Source of the DNA: a virus
DNA: 64,000 nucleotides
Virus record (IMG/VR): IMGVR_UViG_3300042691_027621
Location: 1 to 64,000 of that record
Reading direction: 5' to 3' (one strand)
Of this stretch, positions 2,370 through 59,670 are shown piece after piece. The notes beneath the pieces are model-generated. The model searched no databases. It worked only from the letters and a program-made list of their open reading frames with translations, and was not told the origin of the DNA. Both the position numbers and the translations under genes were made by a program. How positions within the stretch are numbered: position 1 is the stretch's first letter; each line of letters starts with the position of its first letter.

Positions 2370-5246
2370 TTAGATTCTGCCCACTACCACTTCAATGGTG
2401 CCTTGATCACCGTCAAAGTTTTCCAGGGCTTTGCCTATCACTGCGCCTACTGACGGATTGTCACAGGCCTGTGCTCGGCCGTTGCCTGCGCTGACCATCA
2501 TGTCACCTTTGGCAACAGGGCCTTGTACCAAACAAGGCACACGACCTTGCAGCGCAACCACAGCAGTGTGCTCTGCTTCCAGTCCGGCATTCATGAGATA
2601 GCTGGGTTTGGCAGAAACTACTCCGGCTATTCTGCGATCGTTAGCAGTTGTGCTTGCTGTGACTTCAGCTGTGCCGCCAAAGCTGACCACTGTGCCCGGC
2701 AGATAGAACTGATCTGCTGTGTACTTTTCTGCCAAGTCAGCGTACAGTGCTGTGGTTGCTGTGGCAAAAACTTGGTTGAAATAACTTGAGGCACTACCAA
2801 TGTTGCCCACAGCATTGGTACCTGTGTGAGTGATACTGTTGACACTCAGGATACCTGCGGTGCCGCTGGTTATTAGGTTGCCGCTGGTGATGTTGGCAGT
2901 GACAGTTAAACTGCTCAATGTGCCTACGCTGGTGATGTTGTTTTGTGCTGCTGTTGCGATGGTACCTAATAAATTACCACCCGAAATGTTTGCGGTTGTA
3001 GTGATATTGGCTGCGGTATTGATTGCGCTGACCACGTTGCCACTCAAACTCAATCCGGTAGCTTGTAGATTGCCGCCTATCAAATTACCAGTGGCTGATA
3101 CTAGCCCGCCTGTGTTGATGTTGCCCCCAGTGACGTTGCCACTGACAGAAATAGATGAACCAGTGATTGCAGAGCCAACAATGGTGCCAATTAAGTTGCC
3201 CCCAGTGATGTTACCAGTTCCGCTAACAGAACCAGACCCAAACGCAACACTTCCTACATGCGTACCTAATAAATTACCACCTGAAATATTTGCAGTTGTA
3301 GTGATATTGGCTGCGGTATTGATTGCACTGACCACGTTGCCGCTCAAACTCAATCCAGTGGCTTGTAGATTACCACCTATCAAATTACCAGTGGCCGATA
3401 CCAATCCACCTGTGGTGATATTGCCGCCGCGCACGTTGCCAACTGCTGATACTAGCCCGCCAGTGTTGACATTTCCACCAGAGATATTACCAGTGGCTGT
3501 AACTAACCCTGCTGTGCTCAAGTTGCCAACTGTGGCATTTCCAACAACAATCACAGATGTTAAGTTGCCTACCGATGTAATGTTGGCCTGGGCTGCATTG
3601 GTCACTGTGGCTGCGGTACCTGACACGTTGCCTGTGACGTTAATGGTGTAACTTCCACTCAAACGATCTGAACTTACAGTTCCTGATGTTAGTGCGTTGG
3701 CATTGATGTTATTGGTCAACAACGTACCAATATTAGCTGTACCAGTTACAAGAATGTTGGCTGCGTTTACATTGCCAGTGACACTGACGTTAGCAGAAGC
3801 ATTTACGTTGGCAGCAGAAACGTTGCCAGTGACACTTACCGCTCCAATGAAATTTGCGCCGCCTGGCCATAACACCATAATGTTACCAATAGCGTTGACA
3901 GTGGCAAAAATGTTTCCATTAGGACTAGATACTGCCAAAAGTGTTGTACCGCTAGAGATTTGGCTGACTGCAAGATTAGATACCGCAGTTACGTTTGACA
4001 AGAACCCGCCGTCGCCGATGAAGAAGGCACCGCCTTGAGCAGTAATATTTCCAACTGAATAAACTTGTCCAGCAGAATAAACTGCGCCAGCGTTGACGTT
4101 GCCTGTGGCAGATACTAGACCACCAGTGACTAGATTAGCGCCAGTGACGTTGCCTGTGGCTGTGACGTTGCCTGTGGCTGTGAGCATGCCAGTGCTGACC
4201 ACATTTCCAGCATTTATATTATTGGCAATCACGTTGCCTTGTGCAGTGACAATGCCTTGAGTAATTAAATTTGTGCCAGTGATATTGCCTACGGCAGTGA
4301 TTTGAGCATCACTGACTATGTTACCGCCTCGAACGTTGCCTGTGGCCAGTATACCCCCTGCACCTGCGGTGATTGATCCTGCGGTAATAAGGTTACCACC
4401 ATTGATATTACCTGTAACAGTAACTAGTCCGGCAGTGACAAGGTTGCCGCCAGTGATATTACCTGTAGAGGTTATCAATCCTGCGGTAATTATATTTCCG
4501 CCTGTTAGGTTGCCAACTGCTTGTAGTGTGCTACTAAAATAACCCGTGCCAGTAACACCAAATGTTGTAGTAGGTTCTGCATTAGCAATACCAACATTGC
4601 CATTTGGTAAAACAGTTACCACCACAGATGGAGTAACGGTCGTTCCTGTTAAAATTTCTAGTTTAGCGTTTCCTGTTGCATCAGTATATGTTGAACGTAA
4701 CGCCGTGGCTACACGAGCACCTGGAGTAGTAACGTCAGCAGTAAACCATTCAATTGCACCTACTACTGTGTTGGCCGTAGCTGTAGTATCTGTGTCCTGG
4801 AATCTCATAGTGGGCTGAGCTGCGCTGGCGTCTCGTTGAATTGTAATATTGCCCAAAGAAACTACGTTGCCGCTGCGAACGTTGCCGGTAGCACTAACAA
4901 GCCCGCCGGTGTTGATGTTTGCTCCAGTGACGTTACCTGTAGCCGATAACACTCCACTAATGAAAGCACCAGTATTAGCAAAAACAGCCACGTTGCTGGT
5001 GCCGTAAACACCAATGGTCACATTACCGCCTAGCCCCGACGATAATACTTGAACGTTGGAGTTACCTGAGAAAATTTGACTTACTGAAAGATTACCAGTT
5101 AAACTGGTATTTCCAGTAACAGTTAAATTGCCATCGACTACAACGTCAGCTTGTGCATTTCCTAGACCGCTAGAAAGGGTAATGCTGTCCCCTACTCCCA
5201 GCGTTTGAATGGTGTAGTCACCGTTGACAATTTTATAAGTGGCCAT
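2370..5246 (-). CDS. Long tail fiber-like protein with TGN repeats and a conserved C-terminal domain
   Basis: 958 residues. Residues about 30-800 are dominated by a roughly 16-20 residue unit of the form 'GGNLITAGLVSATGNV', consistent with a repetitive beta-structured shaft. The last ~130 residues change character: beginning at ALYADLAEKYTAD, they form a non-repetitive domain with PGTVVSFGG, RIAGVVSAKPSY and GRVPCLVQGPVAKGD motifs. The protein encoded at 57934-59670 ends in a clearly related domain, so the two share a terminal module. Two internal copies of a ~155-base segment lie exactly 300 bases apart. The gene starts at ATG 5246 with AAGGA six bases upstream and directly follows the gene ending at 5247. 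Probably a host-contacting fiber; the shaft and tip assignment is inference. Confidence 0.85.
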   Translation of the reverse strand: MATYKIVNGDYTIQTLGVGDSITLSSGLGNAQADVVVDGNLTVTGNTSLTGNLSVSQIFSGNSNVQVLSSGLGGNVTIGVYGTSNVAVFANTGAFISGVLSATGNVTGANINTGGLVSATGNVRSGNVVSLGNITIQRDASAAQPTMRFQDTDTTATANTVVGAIEWFTADVTTPGARVATALRSTYTDATGNAKLEILTGTTVTPSVVVTVLPNGNVGIANAEPTTTFGVTGTGYFSSTLQAVGNLTGGNIITAGLITSTGNITGGNLVTAGLVTVTGNINGGNLITAGSITAGAGGILATGNVRGGNIVSDAQITAVGNITGTNLITQGIVTAQGNVIANNINAGNVVSTGMLTATGNVTATGNVTGANLVTGGLVSATGNVNAGAVYSAGQVYSVGNITAQGGAFFIGDGGFLSNVTAVSNLAVSQISSGTTLLAVSSPNGNIFATVNAIGNIMVLWPGGANFIGAVSVTGNVSAANVNASANVSVTGNVNAANILVTGTANIGTLLTNNINANALTSGTVSSDRLSGSYTINVTGNVSGTAATVTNAAQANITSVGNLTSVIVVGNATVGNLSTAGLVTATGNISGGNVNTGGLVSAVGNVRGGNITTGGLVSATGNLIGGNLQATGLSLSGNVVSAINTAANITTTANISGGNLLGTHVGSVAFGSGSVSGTGNITGGNLIGTIVGSAITGSSISVSGNVTGGNINTGGLVSATGNLIGGNLQATGLSLSGNVVSAINTAANITTTANISGGNLLGTIATAAQNNITSVGTLSSLTVTANITSGNLITSGTAGILSVNSITHTGTNAVGNIGSASSYFNQVFATATTALYADLAEKYTADQFYLPGTVVSFGGTAEVTASTTANDRRIAGVVSAKPSYLMNAGLEAEHTAVVALQGRVPCLVQGPVAKGDMMVSAGNGRAQACDNPSVGAVIGKALENFDGDQGTIEVVVGRI
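2961..3416 (-). repeat. Direct repeat inside fiber gene, 300-base offset
   Basis: The segment at about 2961-3116 and that at about 3259-3416 are near identical, with exact stretches such as GTGATATTGGCTGCGGTATT at 3001 and again at 3301. The 300-base offset equals 100 codons, so copies can be gained or lost without a frameshift. Confidence 0.8.
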
Positions 5247-5831
5247 TTACAGATCCTTTGTGTTATTTATTCTGTTCAAGAACTCTGTCATTGGCATGGT
5301 TGTGTAGTTAGTGACACTTTCAAATTCTTTCACGTGCACAGTGGTATCGCCTATGACCCTTACAAACGGTGTTTTAGCGTGATCGCGCATGACCGTGGCC
5401 AGTTGTCTAGCCCAGTTGCCAGTATAGGTGGGCACAGCAGAACTTTTTTTGTAAAATTCTGAATCAGCATACACATTGTTGAATTTATTGTTTACAGGAC
5501 CCATATCAAAGCCCACAAGATAGACAATTTTAGCTCGATCAAAGCAGGCAATGCTGGCAGCAATAGGACCCGAACTGAAGCCATAGTACTTTTGCGGCAC
5601 ACTCAACGCTCCTAGATTTGCTATTGGCCGCCGGGTATAAAATCTATGATTTTTAGCATAGCCTTCGGTTTGTATTCTTTCGCTAATAGGACGGTCAGTG
5701 CTGACTAGTACTGTGGGCACAAAGTCCCTATAGAGAGCGTTGCAGCCATAGATATTGCCCATGTGACGCAGGTTGTTGAGATCTACCTGCTGTCTACTTA
5801 CTCCATTACCTAATACAAATGCTGCGGTCAT
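5247..5831 (-). CDS. MptE/MAF-like (DUF115-type) Rossmann protein, function uncertain
   Basis: 194 residues. The N-terminus reads FVLGNGVSR followed by GCNALYRDF and VLVSTD, the layout seen in small phage and bacterial proteins of the 6-hydroxymethylpterin pyrophosphokinase MptE/flagellar motility accessory factor type: a glycine-rich loop, then a 'CNALY' strand, then an Asp after a hydrophobic strand. A second core, IVYLVGFDMG, lies near residue 105. MAF proteins act in glycan or nonulosonic-acid transfer, so a surface- or virion-modification role is possible, but the family is broad. The ribosome site AGGAGG lies inside the 3' arm of the hairpin at 5837-5863, seven bases from the ATG. It is followed without a gap by the 958-residue fiber gene. 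Confidence 0.6.
   Translation of the reverse strand: MTAAFVLGNGVSRQQVDLNNLRHMGNIYGCNALYRDFVPTVLVSTDRPISERIQTEGYAKNHRFYTRRPIANLGALSVPQKYYGFSSGPIAASIACFDRAKIVYLVGFDMGPVNNKFNNVYADSEFYKKSSAVPTYTGNWARQLATVMRDHAKTPFVRVIGDTTVHVKEFESVTNYTTMPMTEFLNRINNTKDL
5264..5271 (-). promoter_or_regulatory. Candidate late promoter AATAAATA
   Basis: AATAAATA on the minus strand, 17 bases upstream of the 958-residue fiber start, followed by an AAGGA ribosome site. It differs from TATAAATA only in the first base. Confidence 0.5.
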
Positions 5832-5880: not shown

Positions 5881-6633
5881 TTAGGAGGTAACGTTGTCTA
5901 CCAAAGCCAGATTGACAGTGGTTTGAGCAGTACCAGACTTGATTACTGTGCCTTCGTCTGTGAAGAAGTTGGCAACGTAACGAACATCGTTAGTAACTTC
6001 AGATTGAGTAAATCCTGAACCGCCAGTGAAGTCCAACAAGAATTTGTTGGTTAGCTTGCTGATTGGGGTAGCAGTAGAGTCACCTGTGGCTTCTGTGAAT
6101 GTAATGCACATTAGACCAGCTGCTGGTGTTGTGTCATTGTCCAGTACACAGACCCCAACACTGTAGGCAGAACCATTGCCGCCACCGTCGGCACCAGTTG
6201 CTGTGAAAATTCCGCCTACTGCAAGGTCAGCTTCTGCACCAATTGATTGCCAATTGGTGGTGCCTAACGCAGCAACTTGATATGCTTGTCCAACCACAAA
6301 ACTGCCGTCGTTAACGCCTGTGACATCGCCAACTAGATATTTGCGGGAACCTTTCTGACGAATGACGTAGCCTTGAGCTACACCTATACCTGAGCCCGAA
6401 GGATCAGCAATGTTAACAATTACATCAACACGAGGAAATGTAGCACTAGGGGTGTCTGTAGGTGTTGCTCCGCCGACCACGCCCAAGAATTGGGTAGAAT
6501 TCAGTGTGTCGGATGAATTGACCACAGGATTGGTCAGGCTTGCGAAATTTGGAAAACCAAGGTCAACACTGACGCTAGCGCCGCCGTTGCCTGAACCAGT
6601 GGAAATTTTTTGTATTTTTAGAGGACGTCCCAT
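5881..6633 (-). CDS. Virion structural protein, 'MGRPLK' type
   Basis: 250 residues. It begins MGRPLKIQK, an N-terminus that I recognise from structural proteins of T4-like cyanophages and relatives. Residues about 113-155 form a compact module (VVGQAYQVAALGTTNW, IGA, GIFTATGADG) that recurs near the C-terminus of the giant wedge protein (VVGNSYFIWALGNTNW, ALGA, LFTATAAG). The C-terminal ~60 residues (KFLLDF to VDNVTS) look like a compact beta domain. It has its own ribosome site (AAGGAG), a perfect late octamer upstream at 6725-6732 and a strong terminator downstream, so it can be a separate late transcript. A capsid decoration or head-fiber role is possible; not established. Confidence 0.7.
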   Translation of the reverse strand: MGRPLKIQKISTGSGNGGASVSVDLGFPNFASLTNPVVNSSDTLNSTQFLGVVGGATPTDTPSATFPRVDVIVNIADPSGSGIGVAQGYVIRQKGSRKYLVGDVTGVNDGSFVVGQAYQVAALGTTNWQSIGAEADLAVGGIFTATGADGGGNGSAYSVGVCVLDNDTTPAAGLMCITFTEATGDSTATPISKLTNKFLLDFTGGSGFTQSEVTNDVRYVANFFTDEGTVIKSGTAQTTVNLALVDNVTS

Positions 6634-6724
6634 TTGTTTTCTCCTTAAAGAAGTCCGATGTGGGTTCTAGCCACTACGCGGTGGGTTTAAAGTACCGCAT
6701 AAAACACCGTATTGTGTTGACAAG

Positions 6725-6732
6725 TATTTATA
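6725..6732 (-). promoter_or_regulatory. T4-type late promoter TATAAATA
   Basis: An exact match to the T4 late octamer on the minus strand, 92 bases upstream of the structural gene starting at 6633. In T4 this element is read by RNA polymerase carrying gp55, which is also encoded in this window. Confidence 0.75.
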
Positions 6733-6772
6733 GAAATAGCAGATATACCTCAAGTTGCCATTAAATATCCAC

Positions 6773-7921
6773 ATGAACCCCAACGAACTTATTGAAACTG
6801 GAAACCAATTTAGATCCAAAAACCAACCCGAACAAGCATTAAGTTGCTATGCGCAGGCCTTTGTTCAAGATCGACACTATGCCGCTGCATTCAACAACTA
6901 CGGCAATGTACTGCGAGAAGTTGGAGAACCAGAAAATGCCGTTCCGTTTTTACAACGTGCAATACAGTTGGATCCTAATAACATCACTGCCAAATTTAAT
7001 CTAGCCATTGCTTATTTGTTGGCTGGAGATTACAAACAAGGATGGCCCGCCTATGAACATCGCTGGGACTACGAGCACCTAGCAGGAACCATGCCGCCAT
7101 TTACTAAACCAAGATGGCGTGGAGAAGATCTTCGAGGTAAAACTATTCTAGTTGTAGGCGAACAAGGCCATGGGGACAATATTCAGTTTGTGAGGTTTTT
7201 ATACAACCTGCATGTGATGGGTGCAGAGATTATACTGCAAGTAACTGACGGGCTGATTCCGTTATTGAAATCCAGTGCCATACTAAAACGAGTCACAGGA
7301 TACGATTACAGCATTGACGATTTTGATGTTTGGACTCCCATAATGAGTATTCCCGGACTGCTAGGGGTGGACTTGTCTAACTTACCTCGTCCTGTGAACT
7401 ATCTCAACGCAGATGCTGGGCTACAAAAACAGTGGCTTGCTTACTTTGGTCCAAAAACAAAAATGCGAGTAGGATTCAGTTGGAGTGGTCGTCGAGACAA
7501 CTGGTTGAATCGTCACAAAGGCATGCCATTTGATCAAATGATGGAATTGATCAAATCAAATCCTCAATACGAATGGATTAACTTGCAGGCAGACTGTACT
7601 CCAGAAGAAGAGATGCAGCTCAAACAAGCAGGCGCACATTGTTTGCCGCCTAATCCAAACATGTGGGCTGACACCGCTGCTCAGATGATGAGCATGGATG
7701 TAATTGTCAGCGTCGATACTGCTGTGGCCCATTTGGCTGCGGCCCTGGGTCGTCCTACCTGGCTAATGTTGAATTGGTTTGGGGTTGATTGGCGTTGGTT
7801 AACCAAACGGGAAGATAGTCCTTGGTACTCGACTATGCGTGTGTTTAGACAACCTGCTATGGGAGACTGGGTAAGTGTGACTCGCAAGGTTGGCCAGTAT
7901 CTGTCGTGGTTCAAGGTATAA
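6773..7921 (+). CDS. TPR protein with glycosyltransferase-9-like domain
   Basis: 382 residues from ATG 6773; a TTG at 6755 would add six residues but has no ribosome site. Residues about 3-100 form two to three tetratricopeptide repeats ending in LAIAYLLAGDYKQGWPAYEHRW, a common linker in bacterial TPR-glycosyltransferase proteins. The second half has GEQGHGDNIQFVRFL and, near the C-terminus, VSVDTAVAHLAAALGRPTWLML, which matches the nucleotide-sugar-binding end of heptosyltransferase-like GT-B enzymes. It is the only plus-strand gene between two minus-strand blocks and has its own terminator at 7989-8032. It probably transfers a sugar to a virion or host-surface acceptor; donor and acceptor cannot be inferred. 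A TTGACA at 6717-6722 could be a -35 element, but the -10 is poor. Confidence 0.8.
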   Translation: MNPNELIETGNQFRSKNQPEQALSCYAQAFVQDRHYAAAFNNYGNVLREVGEPENAVPFLQRAIQLDPNNITAKFNLAIAYLLAGDYKQGWPAYEHRWDYEHLAGTMPPFTKPRWRGEDLRGKTILVVGEQGHGDNIQFVRFLYNLHVMGAEIILQVTDGLIPLLKSSAILKRVTGYDYSIDDFDVWTPIMSIPGLLGVDLSNLPRPVNYLNADAGLQKQWLAYFGPKTKMRVGFSWSGRRDNWLNRHKGMPFDQMMELIKSNPQYEWINLQADCTPEEEMQLKQAGAHCLPPNPNMWADTAAQMMSMDVIVSVDTAVAHLAAALGRPTWLMLNWFGVDWRWLTKREDSPWYSTMRVFRQPAMGDWVSVTRKVGQYLSWFKV

Positions 7922-7988
7922 TCTAGTACAATACACATGTATCCAATATAAGATACAATACTAGCAAGGTCGTTAAACTATATTATTG

Positions 7989-8032
7989 ACCCCAACTACT
8001 CCTGGCATGACCCGCCTGGATGTTGGGGTTTT
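7989..8032 (+). terminator. Rho-independent terminator after the TPR-glycosyltransferase
   Basis: An 8-base-pair stem ACCCCAAC (7989-7996) with GTTGGGGT (8022-8029) encloses a 25-base loop and runs into TTTT on the plus strand. It lies 68 bases after the gene stop. Confidence 0.7.
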
Positions 8033-8044
8033 CACATAGACAAT

Positions 8045-8932
8045 TTAGGTGTAATAAACAATCTCACCTGTTGTGGGATTGTATGCCATTTGATAAAAGC
8101 CCGCAGGTAATCCACTGGATCCACCGTTGCGCACAGGTTTCACTGTGAATGTGTTGGCTGTGGTTTGTTGTAGGTCTGTGCCTGTGGCATTGATGATGAT
8201 TGAGTTGTTGCCCTGATTCAATTCACCAGCATAGTAACCAATGGCCACTGCTGAGTTGCCTTGTGCGGTACTGCCAGCCAAGTAACCAATGGCCACTGCA
8301 CGATTTGCTTGTGAAGTAGCACCAGCATCTGTACCAATAGCCACGGCCTGGATGCCTTGTGTGTTAGTACCAGCACCAGCACCAACGGCCACTGCGGCAT
8401 TACCTTGATTGTTTTCTCCAGCTGAGTCCCCAATAGCAACTGCAACTTCTCCCTGAAAACTCAGCCCAGCACTTAATCCAATGGCCACTGCGTTAACACC
8501 TTGTGCATCATAACCAGCCGATGAACCAACGGCTATGGCTCCCGAGCCTTGAAATGTGTTGCCACCAGTATTCAGACCGATTGAAATGGATGCGGCGCCT
8601 TGTCCGCCTTGACCAGCATATTGACCTAGGGCTATGGCTGCATTGGCCTGGCCGTCAAGTCCGGCATTTTGGCCCAGGGCTATGGTATTGGGACCTGCGG
8701 CACCTGTTTTGTTGCTTAACAGTGCCCAGGTTGTTGCGCCACTGGGTGTAGCAACTGCTGTGAGTTCGCCCAGTGCATTGCCTATGTACAAAATAGTTGT
8801 GGCTTGATCTACCACAAGTTCCCCAGGTCTAGCATTGCCGTTGTAGTTTGCCAATGTCTCTTGAGCATTGTCCTTCATTGCGGCACGTGAAATGCCTGTG
8901 ATGTTGTCGTATGGTGGTGGTGGATTGGCCAT
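8045..8932 (-). CDS. Fiber protein with YadA/Hep-Hag-like head repeats
   Basis: 295 residues. After an N-terminal ~75 residues (MANPPPPYDNITG, then a GELVVDQATTILYIGNA segment typical of fiber N-termini), residues about 83-245 hold ten or more copies of a 16-residue unit whose consensus is AVAIGxxAGxxxQGxx. This is the pattern of the left-handed parallel beta-roll head of trimeric autotransporter adhesins such as YadA. The last ~45 residues (TFTVKPVRNGG, MAYNPTTGEIVYY) resemble a fiber C-terminal cap. It follows the major capsid gene on the same strand but beyond a strong terminator. A trimeric decorative or receptor-binding fiber is likely. No chaperone or protease domain is visible. Confidence 0.75.
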   Translation of the reverse strand: MANPPPPYDNITGISRAAMKDNAQETLANYNGNARPGELVVDQATTILYIGNALGELTAVATPSGATTWALLSNKTGAAGPNTIALGQNAGLDGQANAAIALGQYAGQGGQGAASISIGLNTGGNTFQGSGAIAVGSSAGYDAQGVNAVAIGLSAGLSFQGEVAVAIGDSAGENNQGNAAVAVGAGAGTNTQGIQAVAIGTDAGATSQANRAVAIGYLAGSTAQGNSAVAIGYYAGELNQGNNSIIINATGTDLQQTTANTFTVKPVRNGGSSGLPAGFYQMAYNPTTGEIVYYT

Positions 8933-8958
8933 ACTTTACTTATGATATTGTTGTCAAC

Positions 8959-8984
8959 AAAAAACCCGCCGAAGCGGGTTTTTT
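8959..8984 (-). terminator. Strong bidirectional terminator after the major capsid gene
   Basis: A perfect stem AAAAACCCGC / GCGGGTTTTT with a CGAA tetraloop, U-rich on either strand. It lies 20 bases after the gp23 stop and 27 bases before the YadA-like gene start. Confidence 0.9.
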
Positions 8985-9003
8985 GTTTGGGTGCAATCTC
9001 TGA

Positions 9004-10200
9004 TTAGGAGAAAGACAAGTTAGACACGGCGATCTCACCAACGTAGTCACCAGCGTTACCAAAGCTGCTAGCAGTGTTGGTAAGTTCGATGTATCCGTAA
9101 CGAGTCATGAAGCTCACGACTGGTTCGAATGTTGTTGGGTCCAGAACAACACCGCTGCTCATCAATGGAATGTATGGGCAGTAGAATGCTGGAGCGTCAG
9201 CTTCCGAAGAACCTTTGTAACCAACCAACACAGGTGTTGTGTCGCTAGCATAGCTGTCGACGAACACACGCATTGCGCCGTTCAAGGTACCAACAAACTT
9301 GGTGTTTGTAGGAGCTTCGAATGTGCCTTCTGTAGTGCGAGCAAAAGCAGAAGTAGTTGCAGATTGCAACACTGTCAAGCTAGCTGGGCTAACCACAGCA
9401 TAGTTACCAGCGCCACGACGTGTACGCTGAGCGATCAGGTTAGCAACACGGTTGATCAACACGGCCAAAGCAGCGTGTTCGTCACCAACGAATGTAGCAG
9501 TACCAGAAACGGTAGCTTGGTTGTATGTGAACTCGGTAGAAGCCAAGCTGCGCAGACTCAAGAGAATCTCTTGGTCAATTTCAGCTGTAATTTCTTGAGC
9601 CAAAGCTGCCATGATTTCGGCTTCAACGTCGATACCATGCATAGCTTGTGCGTCTTGGGCACTTTCAAATGTCCAACGTGCTTGCAACTTGCGAGTCTTG
9701 GCTTCAACAGCCTGCTTCAAGATTTGCACGGAAATTTGCTTACCGCCATTACCTTCCATAACTGCTGTAGCGCCACCAGTGTAGCTTGTAGCAGTGCCGG
9801 TGTCTTTTGGTACTGTAGAATATGCAGTAGCAATAGTGAATGGGCTCAATGCTTCTTGGCCAGCTGTAACGCTAGTTGCGGCAGCAGAAGAATCAGTCAA
9901 GCTCTGTGCATAACGTACACGCAGAGTGTGGATCTGACCAACTGGGCCAGTCATAGGCTGAACGCCGACCAACTCGTTAGCAATAACGGTTGGCATTACA
10001 CGTCGAATCACGGGAAGAATCACGCGGTTTAGTGTAGCGATGTTACCAGCACTAGTAGAACCTGCAGAAGCGTTTTCTTTGAGGTACTTGCGAGTGTTTT
10101 CAAGGATCACACCCATGGAATTGCGCTTGGTGCCATTCAGACCTTCGAGCAGAGCTTCCTTGGTCTCGCCCCAGCGACTTTCTAACAATTGTTCTGACAT
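9004..10200 (-). CDS. 23: Major capsid protein gp23
   Basis: 398 residues. The protein is recognisably T4 gp23-like: an N-terminal region that would be removed by gp21 (ESRWGETKEALLEG, MGVILENT), then LPVIRRVMPTVIANELVGVQPM, PVGQIHTLR, and a HK97-fold core with EAEIMAALAQEITAEIDQEIL, GAGNYAVVSPASL and the C-terminal VSFMTRYGYIELT. It is shorter than T4 gp23 (521 residues), apparently by loss of insertion sequence in the middle. The ATG has AGGAG with a 7-base spacing. It is the last gene of the head operon gp20-gp21-gp22-gp23 and is followed by a strong terminator, as suits a very highly expressed gene. Confidence 0.97.
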   Translation of the reverse strand: MSEQLLESRWGETKEALLEGLNGTKRNSMGVILENTRKYLKENASAGSTSAGNIATLNRVILPVIRRVMPTVIANELVGVQPMTGPVGQIHTLRVRYAQSLTDSSAAATSVTAGQEALSPFTIATAYSTVPKDTGTATSYTGGATAVMEGNGGKQISVQILKQAVEAKTRKLQARWTFESAQDAQAMHGIDVEAEIMAALAQEITAEIDQEILLSLRSLASTEFTYNQATVSGTATFVGDEHAALAVLINRVANLIAQRTRRGAGNYAVVSPASLTVLQSATTSAFARTTEGTFEAPTNTKFVGTLNGAMRVFVDSYASDTTPVLVGYKGSSEADAPAFYCPYIPLMSSGVVLDPTTFEPVVSFMTRYGYIELTNTASSFGNAGDYVGEIAVSNLSFS

Positions 10201-10221
10201 TTAAGTCTCCTAAAAATTAAA

Positions 10222-11313
10222 TTACAGTCCTGCCAAACGTTTGAGGTCAATCACATTGCTGCGATCTTCTTCAGTTGTTTGCTTAGGAACAGTCTTATCA
10301 CCGGTTACTGCGGAAACGCTTTCTGTGATCACGGGTTTTGCTTTCACAGAACGGTCTTCCAGCACTGCTGGTAGATACTTTTCGAACGCATTCTTTAGAC
10401 GTGAAGTCTGAACACTTTCGAGCAAATTACGCATAACGTCGGCTTTTTCCCGGTTTAAGGGACTTAGCAATTCACGCATTGTGGTTTCACGTTCGTTGCT
10501 TTCCTTGATTACACGCAGTTCGCGTTCTTTTGACTCAACTACGGCGCGAGCCTTTTCGCTGAGTTTAATGGCTTCAGCCAATTGCTGATCTTTGTTCTGC
10601 AATGCAGAATATAGCTTGCGTACTTCGGCTTTCTCATTGAGGTGAGTAGCACCGAATTCGGCAGCATACGCTTCAAAGATTCGACGACCAAAACTGTTCT
10701 CGCGAGCAATTTTGATATCTTCTTGCAATTGATTAAGTTCACTCTTGAGGTGACGACTAACAGCCTGACTCATTTTCTCTGCACTTTCTTTTACGAAACG
10801 TGTCTTGAGAGTTTCAAGTTTTTCACGAGCTTCACGAACTAGGCGGACTTTTGTTTCCACCACATCACGTTTGTCTTGTGCAAATTCTTGAATTTCACGA
10901 GCCAATGCATGCACCATGAAGTTTTCCATTTTCTGTAAACCTTCAGTGTGCATCATGCGATCCTTGCGTAATTCGCCAATTTCTTCAGCTAATTTAGAAA
11001 CCATGAAGCTGTTGAACTTCTGTGCTGATTCCTTCATTTTAGACTGAAATTTGACGCGATCTTCAACTAGTTGTGCTTTTTCAGCAGCAACTGATTGAAT
11101 TTCAGACGCAAGGCCTTCTGTTACCATCTTGTCAAGAGCTTCAACCATGACTGACTTGTCGTGCTCATAGCGTTGTGCGAACTCCTCACGAAGTTCAGCA
11201 CGAGCCTGCTCACGAGCTTCATTCAGCTTGCTTTCCCAAGCCTCATTGATCTCTTGACGAGTTTCCTCGGTGATCAGGTTACTATCTAGCAATGGTTTGA
11301 TAGCATCTAACAT
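10222..11313 (-). CDS. 22: Prohead scaffolding core protein gp22
   Basis: 363 residues, strongly charged and almost entirely predicted helix or coiled coil (repeated Glu/Lys/Arg with heptad-spaced Leu/Met/Val). It opens MLDAIKPLLDSNLITEETRQEINEAWE, characteristic of T4-like gp22, and lies in the invariant position between protease gp21 and capsid gp23. It acts as the internal scaffold of the prohead and is degraded by gp21 during maturation (known for the family). T4 gp22 is 269 residues, so this one is larger. An AAGGAG ribosome site precedes the ATG. The last ~50 residues are polar and less helical (KPVITESVSAVTG). Confidence 0.93.
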   Translation of the reverse strand: MLDAIKPLLDSNLITEETRQEINEAWESKLNEAREQARAELREEFAQRYEHDKSVMVEALDKMVTEGLASEIQSVAAEKAQLVEDRVKFQSKMKESAQKFNSFMVSKLAEEIGELRKDRMMHTEGLQKMENFMVHALAREIQEFAQDKRDVVETKVRLVREAREKLETLKTRFVKESAEKMSQAVSRHLKSELNQLQEDIKIARENSFGRRIFEAYAAEFGATHLNEKAEVRKLYSALQNKDQQLAEAIKLSEKARAVVESKERELRVIKESNERETTMRELLSPLNREKADVMRNLLESVQTSRLKNAFEKYLPAVLEDRSVKAKPVITESVSAVTGDKTVPKQTTEEDRSNVIDLKRLAGL

Positions 11314-24565: not shown

Positions 24566-26035
24566 TCATTTGCACTGTCTAAAATACCGCATCAATTTTT
24601 GTCTATCAATTTTTCTACTTACAGTGTACTCGATTGGATTAAGATGCCTGGCAATTTTGTTAACCTTGACATGGTCAAAATGCCTGTCAAGGTACTGCAA
24701 AAACTCATGCTCGGCAGATTGACTTGGCGCCCATACGCTGAGATACAACTGTTGTTCTTCGTTGTCGATTACAACTGTAGCTCCGTCTACGCCAAACAAA
24801 TCATGAACCATCTTGTCAATGTCACCAAGATTTATCCACTCGTCACCAATTCTGAAATTAGTACCGCGGCCGTAAAAATAATAGTCGTTGTTTATTTTTT
24901 CAAATTTATCTGAACTGGTCTTCCACTGAGTTTCTCCTAGACCAAGAGCTCTAACATAGAGAAAACCGTCAATGATATCAAATTCAAAAAAATCATCTAG
25001 CTGTGGCCCAATGCGATTGGTAATATATTTGTCAGGATCAGTGTCTTGGTCAACGACCTTGACCAAAAATCCATATCCAATGGTAGTATCACCAAATACA
25101 TTTCGAATTGATGCAATATTTTTTTCTTGCATGAGTCGAACACATTGTTCGTTGACATAGAACAACGTAACAATATCCAAATTAAAATCAATCTTTGGAG
25201 TCTGTTCTAAGAAATTGATTAGTTTTTCTGAGCTATAGAGTAAGATTTTGTTGATCTGATGGTCAGTCACATATTTGCACAAATTTTTGTAGTAATTTGA
25301 ATCAGGATAATGGTTAAACACGTAGTGGTTTTTGCTTGTTATAAAACTAGGCAAAAAGTGATAACACATACTAGCACCGTGATGTAAATTATTGGTATGT
25401 AAAGTGTTTTCGTTGGGTTGAAAATTCAAATGTTTACACAGTCGCAGAGTTTGCAAAACAATTTCCTGATGAGTAATTTTGATTTGTCGCGGCAATCCAG
25501 TGGTCCCGCCTGTGGCAGTCCACACAGCATCTACATCGGGAGTTGCAAACGCAGTATTGAGTATTCTCGATACTAGACTATGATTTTGAATTTGATAGTT
25601 GTCAAAGTCTTGTTCAGTTATTATGACATTGCAATTGAGTCGATTCCGTTCGTGATCCCAGAAAGAATAGAAATCTTTGTCGTTGGGATCAGTTTGTCTG
25701 CTGTAAACTATGGCAAAATCAACTTTACCGTGCATGGTCATTCTATGACTAGTTGCATCTTCCAAACTGTAAGCATGCGGCCAATCTACAATCATGATCA
25801 TGCCTAATTCCCACACAGCAAAAACTGCACTATAGTAGTATGCGTTGGTGAGATTAAATTCTAACATCACTGTCTGCCCTGGCCGAGCCTTGTATTTTTC
25901 TACCAGCAGTATTTTCCAGTAGTCAATCATCTCACAGAATTCATCTCTGTCGATTTGAAAAATTTCTCCTGTGTTTAGATTTTCTTGGTGCAGAACAAAG
26001 TCTGCAGATATTAGATTCCTCGAAAGAATGTTCAT
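24566..26035 (-). CDS. AMP-forming acyl-adenylate/acyl-CoA synthetase-like enzyme
   Basis: 489 residues. Core motifs of the ANL superfamily are in order: TGGTTGLPRQIK (175-186, phosphate loop), FGDTTIGYG (314-322, adenine-side motif), YGRGTNFRIGDEWIN (388-402, hinge region, where the usual Asp after GR is replaced) and SRKIDR with candidate catalytic Lys475. The enzyme should activate a carboxylic acid with ATP; whether CoA is the acceptor cannot be told. Its ATG overlaps the tctC stop (ATGA), so the two are translated together. Two hand-counted lines here are 37% and 32% G+C against 52% in a gp46 line. Its place between gp47 and gp46 marks it as acquired cargo. Confidence 0.8.
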   Translation of the reverse strand: MNILSRNLISADFVLHQENLNTGEIFQIDRDEFCEMIDYWKILLVEKYKARPGQTVMLEFNLTNAYYYSAVFAVWELGMIMIVDWPHAYSLEDATSHRMTMHGKVDFAIVYSRQTDPNDKDFYSFWDHERNRLNCNVIITEQDFDNYQIQNHSLVSRILNTAFATPDVDAVWTATGGTTGLPRQIKITHQEIVLQTLRLCKHLNFQPNENTLHTNNLHHGASMCYHFLPSFITSKNHYVFNHYPDSNYYKNLCKYVTDHQINKILLYSSEKLINFLEQTPKIDFNLDIVTLFYVNEQCVRLMQEKNIASIRNVFGDTTIGYGFLVKVVDQDTDPDKYITNRIGPQLDDFFEFDIIDGFLYVRALGLGETQWKTSSDKFEKINNDYYFYGRGTNFRIGDEWINLGDIDKMVHDLFGVDGATVVIDNEEQQLYLSVWAPSQSAEHEFLQYLDRHFDHVKVNKIARHLNPIEYTVSRKIDRQKLMRYFRQCK

Positions 26036-26976
26036 TGTTGCGAGCTAATGTTAAATTTGGAAATAATTGCGTTGTACTGTGTTTGATCGTTCTTGACTTT
26101 TTGTTTAAAATTGTTCAACGACATGGTGTGTAAAGAAATGTAGTCAAATCTTGACATAGTTTCTTGTACCCGTTGATCTTTTACTGCGTCACGTAGATCT
26201 CTTTCCAGTTGTTCTTTTACTGCTCGGGGAGCAGAGCTTGGCACATAAAAAGCACACCATGCAATTAGAGTAGTGATATTTTTACCAGTTAGTTCTTTTA
26301 CTGTTGGAATGTTAGGATAGCGAGAATCTCGTTGCTCGGCAGCAATAGCAAACCATTTGTTTTTGCCAGCTTGGACCATGCTTTTGGTTGTTCCGGTACT
26401 GCCAAATCCATATGCTACTTGTTTGGTAGAAATATCAGCTTGCCAAGTACCAAAATCTTTATAAGGTACGTGAGTGGCCTTGTCTGTGAACAACAAACCA
26501 TATTCAGCTCCTAATATATGACCCACTGAACCAATGTTCCAAGAGCTATAGGAAGGATTTTTCAAAATTTCTTGTTTAAGATCGTTGTAGGTCTGAATGC
26601 TAGCTGATGCAAACAAAGCCATGTTAGCGTCCAATACTGGAGCAACAGGTTCCAATCGACTAATAGGTTCGCTGTTCTTGAACAAAGAAGAATATGCAAC
26701 CACAGTGCCGCCGTCTAAAAAACCAATGGTGTAGCCGTCAGTGGGTTGATCATTGATATGATTCAACCCAATAACTCCAGCGCCCCCGGGTTTGTTTTCT
26801 ACAATCACAGGTTGTTTCCATTTTTCAGTTAGGACTTCAGAAATTTTTCTTGCCATGACATCAGGACCTGAGCCTACTCCAACTGACAAGACAATTTTCA
26901 CAGGTTTCTCGGGCCATGTTTGTGCATTAACAGCAAGAGTTGCAGTCAATGATAGAAGTGATAAAAATTTTTTCAT
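26032..26976 (-). CDS. TctC/Bug-family periplasmic substrate-binding protein
   Basis: 314 residues, full length for the family. It begins with a signal peptide (MKKFLSLLSLTATLAVNAQ) and then TWPEKPVKIVLSVGVGSGPDVMARKI, the standard mature N-terminus of Bug proteins; PVIVENKPGGAGVIG follows at the expected place, and ELTGKNITTLIAWCAFYVPSSAP near 225 completes the fold. Bug proteins capture carboxylates and other small metabolites in the periplasm for tripartite tricarboxylate transporters. No TctA or TctB membrane gene is present. It has an AAAGGA site, starts 12 bases after the gp47 stop and overlaps the AMP ligase. A virus-encoded copy is unexpected; a metabolic or host-surface role is inference. 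Confidence 0.9.
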   Translation of the reverse strand: MKKFLSLLSLTATLAVNAQTWPEKPVKIVLSVGVGSGPDVMARKISEVLTEKWKQPVIVENKPGGAGVIGLNHINDQPTDGYTIGFLDGGTVVAYSSLFKNSEPISRLEPVAPVLDANMALFASASIQTYNDLKQEILKNPSYSSWNIGSVGHILGAEYGLLFTDKATHVPYKDFGTWQADISTKQVAYGFGSTGTTKSMVQAGKNKWFAIAAEQRDSRYPNIPTVKELTGKNITTLIAWCAFYVPSSAPRAVKEQLERDLRDAVKDQRVQETMSRFDYISLHTMSLNNFKQKVKNDQTQYNAIISKFNISSQQ

Positions 26977-42000: not shown

Positions 42001-42515
42001 TCAGAGATACTACAAACACAGTGACAGAACCCAGTGTGCCTACCATTGATGAGTTGAGCACAGCATATCAAGGTCTGCAGGACTACAAAATGATTTCAGA
42101 CAACGTGGTTCTAAATTCAGTGGTATTCAAACCACTGTTTGGTGCCAAGGCTGCACAACAGCTACGGGCCACTATCAAAGTGATTCGTGCACAAGGATCA
42201 ACCGCCAGCACCAGCGAAATAAAAAGCTCTGTGGTAGCTGAACTCAACAAATATTTCAGTATTGATAAATGGAATTTTGGCGATACATTCTACTTCTCAG
42301 AACTGGCAGCGTATCTGCATCGTCAGCTGGGTAGTATCATTAGTTCTGTTGTGTTGGTACCATTGGATCCACAAAAGAGTTTTGGTGACTTGTATGAGAT
42401 TAGATCTGCTCCCAACGAAATTTTCGTTAATGCAGCAGACATAACTAATATAGATGTGATTGAGGCTTTAACCAGCACCAATCTCCGAACAGCTCCTGGT
42501 AGCGGGGTAATTTAA
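39072..42515 (+). CDS. 6: Baseplate wedge protein gp6
   Basis: 1147 residues (T4 gp6 is 660). The N-terminus has LRLYYPETFNDYIESSEFIALLDVIAFMGQSLAFRTDLNTRENYLDTAERRDSVVRLANLVSYSPKRN, diagnostic for T4-like gp6. ITLVFGDGVFSEIPVG and RAPARYYTQNRMVNGEDYNIFP follow. The C-terminal GYDWLGTITG, SIDKWNFGDTFYFSELAAYLHRQLGSIISSVVLVP is the J-like wedge domain. It forms the inner iris ring of the baseplate. The extra length lies mainly between ~480 and ~900. Its stop overlaps the ATG of the giant wedge gene (TTTAATG). Confidence 0.95.
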   Translation: MAKTTRQTAIFGVEDWKQIYQTYREADFQSYDFETLRKSFIDYLRLYYPETFNDYIESSEFIALLDVIAFMGQSLAFRTDLNTRENYLDTAERRDSVVRLANLVSYSPKRNTAAQGLLKVFSMSTTENVVDYNGVNLSNVTVNWADPTNPDWQEQFTAIINASLVDSQRIGRPGNRQTILGVRTDEYAINLLPGFLPVIPYTATVDGVSMPFEAVTSTSINRDYIYEPSPQPNSPFNILFRNDQLGFDSANTGYFFAFKQGTLTNTDFNLAERISNRTVNINVEGVNNEDRWLFQLDNIGNIAREWAYVESVYTAAAEQQVELRPIFSTTSRTNDQITLVFGDGVFSEIPVGIFRCYTRASNGLEYIINPEEMQAVSLPISYTDRNGNLQTITFTCGITQPVTNAQARETIDAIKQRAPARYYTQNRMVNGEDYNIFPFTAYNSIIKSKALNRSSIGTSRYLDLVDNTGKYSSTNTFSSDGALWEQNILPAILFSWINRNDIADFVTNQVQPQLSEATMKQFYYANFQPRPQLNTAPTALSTWNQSTTLANETTGYFKNATGTPIPVGTNTTTNFKYVQVGSLIKFTAPTINEQSYYFDKNNRLQPGTPTRPDERLDIWASPMAIIGDGYNNGLGNLINGQGPVTLNNFVPTGAIVSEVIPVFVTDLSVTLEQEIGDQIELLRNFGLGYDWLGTITGTIGSWYLITQQNLATDAEFSLTNAGSTSGTGQDASWLVQFEVENQNYTVTFRGLAYYFGSVLQTRFFFYDNQLIYDSRTGTVIKDFVNVLAMNTQPDSTSPLPGDVYMTIIGQPVESDGYVDDFQVLVSYRDSDNDGVPDDPDFFNEIVAPNVNANQKLIFLQQTVDFDNLQRYLLVEEGVVNSDYATYDEIELAKSEWSPGQVFYAYNEGTFWLLSVNVAGVRTLVQQSGWIARNGRQDLYFQYRHNSPLTARIDPGTTNIIDLYVVTQAYYTAYQNWIRDTTNTVTEPSVPTIDELSTAYQGLQDYKMISDNVVLNSVVFKPLFGAKAAQQLRATIKVIRAQGSTASTSEIKSSVVAELNKYFSIDKWNFGDTFYFSELAAYLHRQLGSIISSVVLVPLDPQKSFGDLYEIRSAPNEIFVNAADITNIDVIEALTSTNLRTAPGSGVI

Positions 42516-45500
42516 TGTCAAGAATTAGAAGTGTAGATTTTTTACCTGAGATTTTTCAAACTGATGTCAACAAGCAGTTTTTTGCTGCTACTTTGGATCA
42601 GTTGATACAAGAACCTCAATTTAAGAAGACCCAGGGCTTTATTGGCCGCACAGTGGGACCTGGGGTCAACCCCAACGACCGTTATGTGATCGAGCCTAAT
42701 CGTGTTCGCGCTGACTATCAGCTAGAAGCAGGTGTGATCAGTCTTGAACCAGGCACAGGTAAAATTCAAGATGCTATTACCTATCCTGGTCTGCTGGATA
42801 GCATAGCTTATCAGACGGGTAGTCCTGGACTGACTAGTGGCATTATCTCTACCGAAGGTGGCGACAGTATTCGTCCAGACCGACTGTTCGAAAGCCAATA
42901 CTACACTTGGGACCCGTTCATTAACTGGGATACCTTTATCAACTTCAGTCAGTATTTCTGGTTGCCCAATGGCCCAGATGCTGTGACTGTGGCTGCTTCT
43001 ACTGTACCAGCTACCAACAACTTCACAGTTACTCGTTCTAACGATTATTATAACTTTTCTGGAGTACAAGGCAACGATCCTACTATTGATCTTGTGCGTG
43101 GCGGCAGCTATACTTTCCAAGTAGCTCAAAATCAAAAGCAAACCATAAACTACGGAGTAGGAAACAACGGCACCAGTGCTTATATAATAAATCTGGCAGC
43201 TAACCCCACTGTGTCTCTGGTACGGGGGAACACCTACACCTTTACATTGAGTCTAACAGGCGACTATCCGTTTTACATCAAAACATCGCCTACCACTGGT
43301 CTGACCAATATCTACAGCGATGGCGTAACCAACAATGGCGCTGTCACAGGCGTGATCACTTTTGTTGTACCACAAAATGCTCCAGACGTATTATACTATG
43401 CCGCTGCAAATCAAAGCAACATGCGTGGACAATTCAATGTCATTGACGCATCATCAGGCACTGGTTCCGGCTTCTGGATCCAAACAGCACCAGGGGTAAG
43501 CGGGCGAATTCCAGCTACACCAAACATCAGCAGTCGTGATGTACTGGGAGTGACCAACAACGGTGAAGACCTTGGCACAATCACTTTCAATGTGCCCACT
43601 AAAACTGCTCAACAATTCTATTACGGCCTACCTAACGTAGGTGGCGGTACTAGTCCTTACAATGTTGACTTAATTACAGATCTTAAATTCAATCAAATTG
43701 ATGGAATAAAAGTCACTGATTTCCTAGCTACCTATGGTGGCATCGATGGCATCACTGAACTCAATGGTCGCACATTAGTTTTTGATCAACCCATTGTGGA
43801 CGTTGACCAAGGTGGCTGGTACAGCACTTCAATGTTTGATCCATTGAGTGCAGGCAGCACCAACAATGGTCTACCTGGTAGCTTTGACAGCTTGCCTTAT
43901 GCTCTGCAAACCACAGTACCGGTGAACGAACGATATAGCGTATGGCAAATCAACTATGTAGACAACGATGGCTATGTGACTATTCAGTTGGTTAGTACTC
44001 AGTTGATTGGCAATTTAGAAAAATTTAATATTCTGTACGGTACTACATACGCCAGCACTAGTTGGTACAAAAACGATGCTGGTTTCCTGCGACAAATACC
44101 TTTGCTCAGTGCTATTCAAGATACTTTGTACTATCAAGACGGTACTAACCCAGAAATTTTTGGACGTATTCGACTAATTGAACAACCGTTGGCATCAACA
44201 CTGTTCATAGAAGAAATACTAGGCAAAAAAACTTATACCAGCCCCAATGGAATTACATTTACCAACGGACTAAAAATTATTTTACGTGGTGAAGTAGTAC
44301 CAGCCAGCTATGCTGACAAAGAATACTATGTATCAGGCGTGGGCACAGCCATTGAACTGTTGCTGGTATCAAACTTTGTTGTGCCTGAAACTTATGTAGT
44401 TGACGCCAACGACAGTACCGCTGCGGTAGAACCAGCTGAGCTTGACTACTTGACTATAAACCGTGCCAGCAAAGATCTCAATGCCTGGACACGCAGCAAT
44501 CGATGGTTCCATATTGACGTTATCAATGCCACAGCTGAATACAACAGCACCACAGCTGATATCGACAACAGCTACAGAGCCAAACGACCAATCATTGAGT
44601 TTCGTCCTGGACTGCGCCTGTTTGACATGGGCACTGAAGGCAAGCAACCCGTTGATATAATAGATTTTGAAGAAACTGATGCGTTTTCTAATATTCAAGG
44701 TGCCACAGCCTACAGTGTTGATGGTTACAATTTAGTCAACGGCAGTCGAGTTATTTTTGCTGCTGACGAAGATGCAGATGTACGAAACAAAATTTGGGTG
44801 GTAAACTTTGTTGATCCAGACTCGATACCTCCACTAATTGCACAGCCAATTATTAACCTGACCTTGGCCACCGACGGCATAGTGCTGTTTAATCAATGTA
44901 CAGTTTGCACAGAAGGTACCACACTCAAAGGACTAACTTTCTGGTATGACGGTGTTGATTGGATCCGAGCACAACAAAAACAAGGTGTTCAACAATCTCC
45001 GTTGTATGATGTTTACGATGCCAACGGTGTTAGCTTTGGCAATAGAGCTGTATACCCATCGTCTACGTTTGTAGGCAGCAAGTTGTTTAGCTATGCGGTG
45101 GGCGACACAGGAATACTAGATCCTATATTACAGTTTCCTTTGCAGTATCTCAACCTCAACAACGTTGGCGATATTGTGTTTGAAAACAACTTGTACAAAG
45201 ATACATTCTTGTATGTTCGGGACAACGTGTCTGTTACTGAACCTATCAGTGCAGGTTTTGTTCAAGAATTTTTAACCAGAACAACAAGTGTTCGAGACAT
45301 TGGATGGAAAGTGGCAGCCACTGACACCCAGATTCGACAACAGTTTAAATTTACCTACACTGGTGAGTCATTGAAGTTAGACATCAAAGTTGAGTCAACA
45401 GTGGCACCTTTACAAAATCCTGTGCCTCCAGTTAAAGTATATGTTGGTTCAGAATTCAAAGACCCGGACACATATACTGTTGTTACCACAGACAACACTA

Positions 45501-57933: not shown

Positions 57934-59670
57934 ATGGCTTATGTAATCAACCTTACCGATGGTGCTACTTTTGCTACCATTGCAGATGGTACTATCAATA
58001 CTTCTAGCTCAATGACGCTGGTAGGTAAAAACTACGCCGGCTACGGTGAGTTCTTAGACGAAAACTTTATTCACTTGTTGGAAAACGGTTCTAACACCAC
58101 TGCACCCCCAGCACCGTTGACTGGTCAGCTTTGGTGGGACAAAACCAATAACTTGCTGAAAGTTTACAACGGCTCAACATTCAAAACTATTTCAGCAGCT
58201 ACAGCCAGTGCCAGTGCACCTGCATCTAATGTCACAGGAGATTTGTGGTACGACACGGTTAACCAGCAACTTAAGGTGTGGACTGGTTCTGCTTTCTTAG
58301 TAGTTGGTCCGGCCTTCTCTAGTGCTACAGGCACAGCTGGCGCTATTCCTGAAACTATTAACGATTCAGGCGGCAGCCCGCACTTTGTTACCACTTTGTA
58401 CGTAAACAACAGCAGACAGGCTATTGTCAGTTTAGACTCGGCTTTTACACCTGCGTCGCCAATTAACACCAACTTCCCAACTATCTATCCAGGTATAACC
58501 GTGACCAAGAACGCCAGCAGTGTTCTCAGCGGAAACGTGGTCAACACTGGTAACCTTACTTTAGGCGCAGGCGGCGCAACCACTGTTACTGTAACTAGCA
58601 CAGGCGGCAACATTTCTGGCTATGTTAGTGCTAGTGGAAACGTTACAGGTGGCAATTTAATCACAGCTGGCCTGGCCACAGTGTCTGGCAACGTTACAGG
58701 TGGCAATTTCTTAACCAGCGGCATTGTCAGTGCCACAGGCAACATCACCGCCGGCAACGTTGCAGCAACCAATTACACTGGTACCGTAGTTAGCGTGACT
58801 GGCAACGTCACCGGCGGTAATGTACTAACAGGTGGAATTTTGAGTGCTAGTGGTAACATCACTGGTGGCAATATTGCTGCTACATTGCACACTGGTACCG
58901 CAGTTAGTGTTACAGGAAACGTCACTGGTGGTAATTTGATTACTAGTGGTCTAGTGACTGTGACTGGTAATATCAACAGTTCAGCTAACATTGCAGGTAG
59001 TTACTTCTTGGGCAACGGTGCATTACTAACTGGTATCAGTGCAGCGGTTAGTGTTCAAAAGATCTCTGCTGGCACAACCGAAGTTAACATTCCTAGCTCA
59101 GGTGGATCAATTTTTGCCAACGTAGCAGGAACTTCCAACGTCATGGTTGTTTCTAGTTCAGGCGCTACCTTCAGCGGCATTACTGTGCCCAGCATTGGTA
59201 AAAGCGGTTCAAATGCTGTGGGCAACATTGGATCTAGCTCAAACTATTTTAACCAGGTATTTGCCACAGCAACTACAGCACTGTACGCTGACGTTGCAGA
59301 ACGATTTGAAGCTGACGAAGTCATGGAACCAGGTACAGTGGTCGAACTTGGTGGCGAAAAAGAAATTACCAAATCTCGTGCAGAACTCAGCGACTTAGTG
59401 TTTGGTGTGATAAGTACAAAGCCCGCATTTACTATGAACGGTGGAGCAGGCGAAAACGATACTCATCCTCCTGTGGCAATGACTGGTCGCGTTCCAGTTA
59501 AAGTTTCAGGTATAATACACAAAGGCGATCGATTAGTTTCAGCAGGAGATGGGTTGGCCCGTGCAGCTCGCCCAGGCGAAGCAACATCATTTAATGTGAT
59601 CGGGCGTGCATTGACATCCAAGCTGAGCACAGATATTGGTACCGTTGAAGCAATTGTGAGTATCAAATAA
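57934..59670 (+). CDS. Tail fiber-like protein with conserved N-terminus and shared C-terminal domain
   Basis: 578 residues. N-terminal ~125 residues (VINLTDGATFATIADGTIN, GKNYAGYGEFLDENFIHLLENGSNTT, then two 'TGQLWWDKTNNLLKVYNGSTF'-like copies) form the attachment domain widespread in T4-like environmental phage fibers. Residues ~200-345 repeat 'VSVTGNVTGGNLITSG'. The last ~140 residues, from ALYADVAERFEADEVMEPGTVVELGG to VGTVEAIVSIK, are related to the end of the minus-strand fiber at 2370-5246. Likely a virion fiber; a direct late promoter and ribosome site precede it. Confidence 0.88.
   Translation: MAYVINLTDGATFATIADGTINTSSSMTLVGKNYAGYGEFLDENFIHLLENGSNTTAPPAPLTGQLWWDKTNNLLKVYNGSTFKTISAATASASAPASNVTGDLWYDTVNQQLKVWTGSAFLVVGPAFSSATGTAGAIPETINDSGGSPHFVTTLYVNNSRQAIVSLDSAFTPASPINTNFPTIYPGITVTKNASSVLSGNVVNTGNLTLGAGGATTVTVTSTGGNISGYVSASGNVTGGNLITAGLATVSGNVTGGNFLTSGIVSATGNITAGNVAATNYTGTVVSVTGNVTGGNVLTGGILSASGNITGGNIAATLHTGTAVSVTGNVTGGNLITSGLVTVTGNINSSANIAGSYFLGNGALLTGISAAVSVQKISAGTTEVNIPSSGGSIFANVAGTSNVMVVSSSGATFSGITVPSIGKSGSNAVGNIGSSSNYFNQVFATATTALYADVAERFEADEVMEPGTVVELGGEKEITKSRAELSDLVFGVISTKPAFTMNGGAGENDTHPPVAMTGRVPVKVSGIIHKGDRLVSAGDGLARAARPGEATSFNVIGRALTSKLSTDIGTVEAIVSIK

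Follow-up and report, generated by a model that had tools for sequence, protein, structure and literature searches.

A YadA-head-like roll on a conserved anchor, encoded next to the major capsid gene of an uncultured T4-like phage: a putative modular virion fibre

The sequence analysed here (hereafter the window) comprises 64,000 nucleotides, positions 1 to 64,000 of the IMG/VR record IMGVR_UViG_3300042691_027621, which is a 75-kb virus contig. The record contains genes coding for a gp23-type major capsid protein, a portal protein and a prohead protease and is therefore placed among the T4-like phages. The best matches of its gp23 in cultured phages all belong to jumbo phages, namely Vibrio phage 2.275, Sinorhizobium phage Phosso, PA5oct and its relatives, and Serratia BF (61-66%). 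The gene under study, hereafter called the fibre gene for its proposed role, starts 71 nt after gp23, its next gene upstream, on the same strand, in agreement with the initial annotation, which had located it next to the major capsid gene. Its parts and neighbours are listed in Table 1. A short linker separates the anchor of about 62 residues from the roll, and the padloc and NCBIfam libraries gave no match for the protein.

Table 1 Features of the fibre gene region (window coordinates)
Feature	Position	Strand	Basis
Fibre gene, 295 aa	8045..8932	(-)	ORF and sequence; ATG start, open to stop
N-terminal anchor, residues 1-62, common to all tip types	8747..8932	(-)	Alignments
YadA-head-like roll, residues 83-243, ten 16-residue units	8204..8686	(-)	Motif spacing, profile match, structure re-alignment
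Roll end piece, residues 244-268 (NSIIINATG...TANTFTVKPVR), conserved	8129..8203	(-)	Alignment of 14 sequences
C-terminal tail, residues 269-295, 27 aa	8048..8128	(-)	Near-identical in the tip-less ~92-aa form
Terminator-like hairpin between gp23 and the fibre gene	8956..8987	(-)	Fold of 8945-9003
gp23-type major capsid gene, neighbour	9004..10200	(-)	Pfam PF07068, 324.6 bits; phrog_138, 330.9 bits
TPR/glycosyltransferase-9-like gene, convergent neighbour bounding the capsid-side position	6755..7921	(+)	Pfam TPR and PF01075, 24.6 bits (cut-off 22)

The two genes are separated by a hairpin with a T-run, the 59-nt segment containing it being predicted to fold at -22.4 kcal/mol (z -4.95; folding was performed for the window and three relatives). 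A like hairpin was read by eye in 10 loci with the fibre gene, one of which (L001) is the same phage, and in four loci without it, and it is therefore considered to belong to the capsid gene. It was not listed by a simple promoter and terminator scan, which also found no promoter on the strand of the fibre gene. As for the head operon to which the gene had been assigned, the same-strand capsid neighbour is indeed there but the operon itself is uncertain because of this strong terminator-like hairpin. Since it lies behind the hairpin of the capsid gene, the fibre gene is probably expressed in smaller amounts than the capsid protein.

Several other genes of the window are worth recording. The CDS at 5247-5831 (-) matches a phage alpha-2,3-sialyltransferase family (phrog_4603, 9.8e-6) and, together with the TPR/glycosyltransferase-9-like gene, flanks the fibre region, so that both are possible glycan-modifying genes beside fibre genes. 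Two large repeat-rich fibre-like proteins are encoded far apart and on opposite strands, at 2370-5246 (-) and 57934-59670 (+), and share a stretch with about 40% identity over 185 residues, as measured in near-identical loci. A giant structural protein is represented by a 4,872-aa ORF (42515-57133, +) with an FG-GAP repeat above the cut-off and a weak match to the T7 tail-fibre N-terminus below it. Host-type metabolic genes, possibly auxiliary ones, include a TctC-type tricarboxylate-transporter receptor with an apparent signal peptide (26032-26976, -; PF03401, 115.2 bits, cut-off 27) and the adjoining AMP-binding enzyme (24566-26035; PF00501, 39.9 bits).

The central part of the fibre protein consists of regular AIG-type repeats of the kind found in YadA-like heads. 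The loose motif [ASTV][ILV][AST][ILVF]G begins at residues 83, 99, 115, 132, 148, 164, 180, 196, 212 and 228, which gives ten units with a spacing of 16 residues and one exception of 17; the "ten or more" 16-residue units reported initially are thus ten and not more. The stricter motif [AS][IV][AS][ILV]G occurs nine times, whereas 2,000 shuffles of the same protein gave 0.06 occurrences on average and never more than two. The self-identity of the repeat region is 0.41 at a lag of 16 and 0.33 at a lag of 32, the remaining lags between 8 and 35 giving 0.05-0.17, so the periodicity is far beyond chance. In the DNA a period of 48 nt was recognised for no more than 3.6 copies, with 69% matches, which means that the array has diverged in DNA and has been kept in protein. 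Across 19 distinct complete roll proteins the roll contains from 7 to 27 motif-bearing units, mostly spaced by 16 residues and in a few cases by 15, 17, 18 or 32. The conserved end piece closing the roll can also be written as NNSIIINATG...TTANTFTVKPVR.

A profile of 14 family members compared with PDB sequences gave a single match at E ≤ 10, the YadA head 1p9h (E 5e-4), located in the repeat region and aligned with a low accuracy (0.50), so that no residue-level correspondence is claimed. The predicted model, which is of low confidence (pLDDT 60.2, pTM 0.52), has one strand per unit at a spacing of about 16 residues. When this low-confidence model was re-aligned with 220 chains, the BoaA head 3s6l (Z 11.9) and the YadA head 1p9h (Z 11.0) took the first two places, followed by SadA (Z 8.8), with unrelated hexapeptide-repeat enzymes reaching 8.4 at most. 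Foldseek gave no match to the model in the PDB at E ≤ 0.001 and 38 matches among viral models at the same threshold, among them proteins from uncultured Caudovirales, one from a Marseillevirus that is labelled YadA-like head, and one each from a Chlorovirus, a virophage and Tenacibaculum phage pT24. The Pfam family YadA_head (PF05658) was matched by all 14 family members at E ≤ 0.1 (best 1.6e-15); the window protein stays below the gathering threshold of that family (16.3 versus 25 bits) and a relative with 27 units, L083, exceeds it (35.8 bits). On the profile match to 1p9h, the structure re-alignment with the BoaA and YadA heads and the Pfam matches of the relatives, the roll is YadA-head-like, and the YadA-like repeats named in the initial annotation are borne out, a beta-roll being their probable fold.

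With the heads of Yersinia YadA (1p9h) and Burkholderia BoaA (3s6l) and with PF05658 the roll shares the AIG-type units, one modelled strand per unit and the best re-alignments. It differs from the YadA heads, the period of which is shorter (14-15 residues), in having mostly a 16-residue period and neither a stalk nor a membrane anchor, and in being borne on a phage anchor. The further designation of the protein as trimeric autotransporter-type does not hold: in a Pfam scan of the window protein at E ≤ 1 YadA_head was the only family found, with no translocator/YadA anchor or any other autotransporter family, and the C-terminus consists of the short tail, so the fibre protein is not an autotransporter. 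That it might nevertheless serve as a trimeric adhesin on the surface of the infected cell rather than in the virion is extremely improbable, as this idea is favoured by the likeness of the roll to the YadA and BoaA heads only, while a 92-aa form without any roll exists and relatives of the anchor are absent from one scan of 84,980 species genomes, none of the 19 pattern matches there being a relative.

The first 60 or so residues of the protein are near-invariant among relatives, with 32 invariant columns in an alignment of 18 sequences and 30 in an alignment of 29. Pfam gave no above-cut-off match for this anchor. It weakly resembles the N-terminal domain of the major tropism determinant (Mtd_N, PF18454; 1yu0) in the stretch ARPGELVVDQxTDxVYIGNxxG: 13 of 29 members match at E ≤ 1 (best E 0.0024) but below the curated gathering threshold (12.6 versus 26.3 bits for the first member), and the low-confidence model of the anchor (pLDDT 58.4) aligned to 1yu0 with Z 2.5, the highest Z to any structure being 3.3. 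Among viral folds the whole model is likewise matched best by a protein named for the major tropism determinant. No homologue of the anchor was found in 50,697 cultured phage records, which yielded one chance-level match (E 7), and PHROGs gave no match for the short, tip-less form. No description of the anchor family was recognised in the open-licence literature of PubMed Central, so this base with its set of swapped tips appears to be undescribed, though related fibres are known.

The relatives were collected by a whole-protein scan (51 loci) and an anchor scan (the best 80 of 254 relatives). After 22 loci repeating contigs of the whole-protein scan had been removed by hand, 96 anchor genes from 91 uncultured viral contigs were counted; loci without the gene start in their stretch were left out, and some of the contigs look like copies of one virus. 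With the anchor scan represented by the best 80 of 254 relatives, the counts of tips and positions describe the most similar part of the family. Out of the 96 counted genes 39 have no tip and 39 have a roll, the remainder being divided between a 202-aa type, a type of about 220 aa and two single types, which makes four non-roll kinds among the matches listed. In our own reading of the sequences the ~220-aa type may be jelly-roll-like; its sole Pfam match is BclA_C (E 0.076), and the 202-aa type was likewise defined by our reading and not by a family match. The tip-less forms are 91-99 aa long and most of them end in nearly the C-terminal tail of the window protein. With 39 of the 96 listed genes lacking a tip, this part can be dispensed with, and the anchor may serve some function by itself.

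The anchor genes occupy two positions. Among the same 96 genes (best 80 of 254 relatives), 72 are located on the terminase side and 23 on the capsid side, after gp23, with one assigned to neither position. Those listed on the terminase side include 37 short genes (~92 aa), 20 with a roll, eight of the 202-aa type, six of the ~220-aa type and one other, and those on the capsid side 19 with a roll, two short (99 aa), one other and one cut by the contig end. In five contigs among the matches listed, two anchor genes stand in tandem and bear different tips, and record G017 harbors a roll gene on the capsid side together with a 202-aa-type gene on the terminase side. The conserved anchor, the exchange of tips and the two gene positions had escaped the initial annotation, which caught the repeats and the capsid neighbour.

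The nearest relative other than the same phage, locus L003 (97% amino-acid identity to the window protein), has no visible gp23, and its copy of the fibre gene lies between small unknown genes and a cluster of nuclease, radical-SAM and TerL genes. When window positions 7645-10332 were compared with the DNA of L003, a single homologous block of 904 nt with 90.8% identity was found, which begins with the start codon and runs on for 16 nt after the stop, with no DNA homology of the flanks at E 1e-5. As the two genes stand in different places and their homology ends at the gene edges, the gene moves as a unit. TerL was not found in the 75-kb record of the window itself, so the terminase-side position is unseen there. 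Downstream of the terminase-position gene in L003 there are a staphylococcal-nuclease-like protein, the start of which resembles a signal peptide (5898-6335; PF00565), and a radical-SAM/SPASM protein (6277-7497), both of which recur in many related contigs.

Out of 30 large records searched, 17 contain gp23, and the anchor gene lies within 1.5 kb after it in three of these (G005, identical to the window here, G017 and G028), while in eight of the other 14 a TPR/glycosyltransferase gene is found no more than 400 nt after gp23, six of the eight looking like one virus; the records having been selected for the anchor gene or a relative, these fractions are not population frequencies. Among the matches listed, eight contigs (L009, L011, L092, L094-L097, L099) have more than 840 nt between gp23 and the fibre gene. 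In the two that were scanned, L009 and L097 (the same as G017), the intervening gene codes for a homing endonuclease according to PHROGs, with NUMOD3 exceeding its cut-off in each and L009 having a GIY-YIG domain as well, and it may be these endonucleases that drive the movement of the fibre gene.

Comparison of the window with L003 gave dN 0.016 and dS 0.369 for the whole fibre gene (dN/dS ~0.04) and dN 0.022 and dS 0.404 for the roll alone (dN/dS ~0.05). This purifying selection on the roll between the two loci indicates that it is maintained and not decaying. Phage adhesion fibres typically show this pattern of a base that stays constant and a tip that varies while being held under purifying selection.

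Taken as a whole, we consider it probable that the protein is a modular surface fibre of the virion, in which the N-terminal anchor is a docking module that would hold the fibre on the particle and the distal tip is exchangeable. In this phage the tip would consist of ten 16-residue turns wound into a left-handed beta-roll like that of the YadA head, together with the conserved end piece, and the analogy with YadA heads leads us to expect a homotrimer. Such a roll would project a few nanometres from the particle and might bind a surface, be it a host glycan, an envelope or other particles, thereby aiding reversible adsorption. The rolls of relatives differ mostly by whole turns, and tips would be changed by recombination behind the constant anchor.

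A place in the virion is suggested by the context: one terminase-side neighbour is homologous to PA5oct 0202 (29.5% over 105 aa), which has been recorded as a virion protein by mass spectrometry, and in Synechococcus S-B05 a roll protein is encoded between the terminase genes, its matches including virion PHROGs of the head class as well as of the tail class. For the docking site we favour the head over the tail or the neck. Both gene positions border capsid or packaging genes, and capsid hairs exist in this phage group, as described below for phAPEC6. The capsid fibre suggested in the initial annotation is thus a candidate reading, with members of the family also lying beside the terminase gene. 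It is less probable, though a serious possibility, that the anchor docks on the tail or the collar, making the protein a tail, baseplate or neck (whisker-type) fibre whose gene happens to lie near head genes, with the roll as a receptor-binding or spacer domain; this differs from the head-docked fibre in the docking site only, and the probabilities given to the two therefore overlap. The best PHROG of the window protein is indeed a tail-spike family (phrog_4636, 3.1e-5), the best stretch of the match covering residues 134-201 within the roll and not the whole protein. Five of 21 cultured-phage records with a roll-like protein say tail and none says head, but some of the roll-like cultured proteins match the head-class family phrog_6002. 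A tail-fibre gene is located no more than five genes downstream of gp23 in Serratia BF, PA5oct, PBECO4 and GAP32. The published virion proteome of phAPEC6, in the part consulted, has no entry from between gp215 and gp225 (the latter being the capsid protein), an interval into which the tail-fibre gene of PBECO4 would fall judging from gene order. The weak likeness of the anchor to Mtd_N, the N-terminus of a tail-tip protein, also points to the tail but stays under the family cut-off, and the vicinity of capsid or packaging genes in both positions argues for the head.

It is unlikely that the protein is mainly a capsid decoration (cement) whose anchor plugs or stabilises the shell, with the tip as an optional ornament of little binding capacity. 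Among the counted genes, to which the anchor scan contributed the best 80 of 254 relatives, tip-less forms equal roll forms in number, and no part of the protein is more conserved than the anchor, both of which would suit such a role; against it, the roll is under purifying selection and several unrelated tips are kept behind the same anchor, as expected of binding modules.

The proposed adhesion fibre has several counterparts among known phages. Pelagiphage tail fibres with YadA-type tips (PMC3909814) and pelagimyophage structural operons with YadA domains (PMC7029224) have been described previously, and according to the consulted parts of these papers the proteins concerned, like ours, combine a conserved N-terminus with a variable YadA-like distal part. 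The N-terminus of the pelagiphage fibre is, however, of the T7 type, whereas here a separate anchor family is encoded beside capsid or terminase genes. Head fibres and decoration proteins such as phi29 gp8.5, SPP1 gp12 and T4 Hoc (PMC7602432) and those of phage 7-7-1 (PMC12796354) are described in the sections consulted as accessory capsid-surface proteins aiding adhesion, some of them trimeric, which is the kind of protein proposed here; they are capsid-bound, as ours may be, and have other folds (coiled coil, collagen-like or Ig-like).

The jumbo coliphages phAPEC6 and 121Q belong to the same broad phage group, the gp23 of 121Q being 60.0% identical to that of the window. The centres of the phAPEC6 capsid hexamers bear a fibrous protein with two arms in the cryo-EM density and a trimeric look in negative stain, the gene of which is left unassigned in the part of the report consulted (PMC7247149). 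These hairs are two-armed as described there, and the present anchor has no homologue in the cultured phage records. The phAPEC6 "hemagglutinin repeat-containing protein" gp211 (69.9% coverage in the virion, as given in the part of the source consulted) was considered as the same thing and dropped; its likely counterpart PBECO4 gp505, paired with it on size and gene order alone, has neither a roll nor a relevant match in Pfam. A protein of cyanophage S-SZBM1 reported in virions (PMC9146016, consulted in part) was likewise dropped as virion evidence: the deposited protein (L181 8885-10219) contains two scattered motif matches, has no Pfam match at E ≤ 0.01 and belongs with phrog_692. Its name in Synechococcus phage S-SZBM1, "YadA domain-containing structural protein", looks inherited.

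On the scale of the family a wider and rather doubtful proposal can be made, namely that in a large uncultured family of jumbo T4-like phages the anchor is a standard capsid docking module with exchanged tips, be it no tip at all, a YadA-like roll adjusted in length, or a jelly-roll-like or other domain, that the gene moves whole between the capsid and terminase clusters, perhaps helped by the neighbouring homing endonucleases, and that the head surface is a fast-evolving binding array. If the anchor does dock on the capsid, it would constitute a natural display system in which a constant module of about 60 residues accepts the roll, four other tips or none, and the anchor genes would rank as candidates for encoding the capsid hairs of this jumbo-phage group. 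The family also lends itself to studying how wild phages swap tips and lengthen them one turn at a time.
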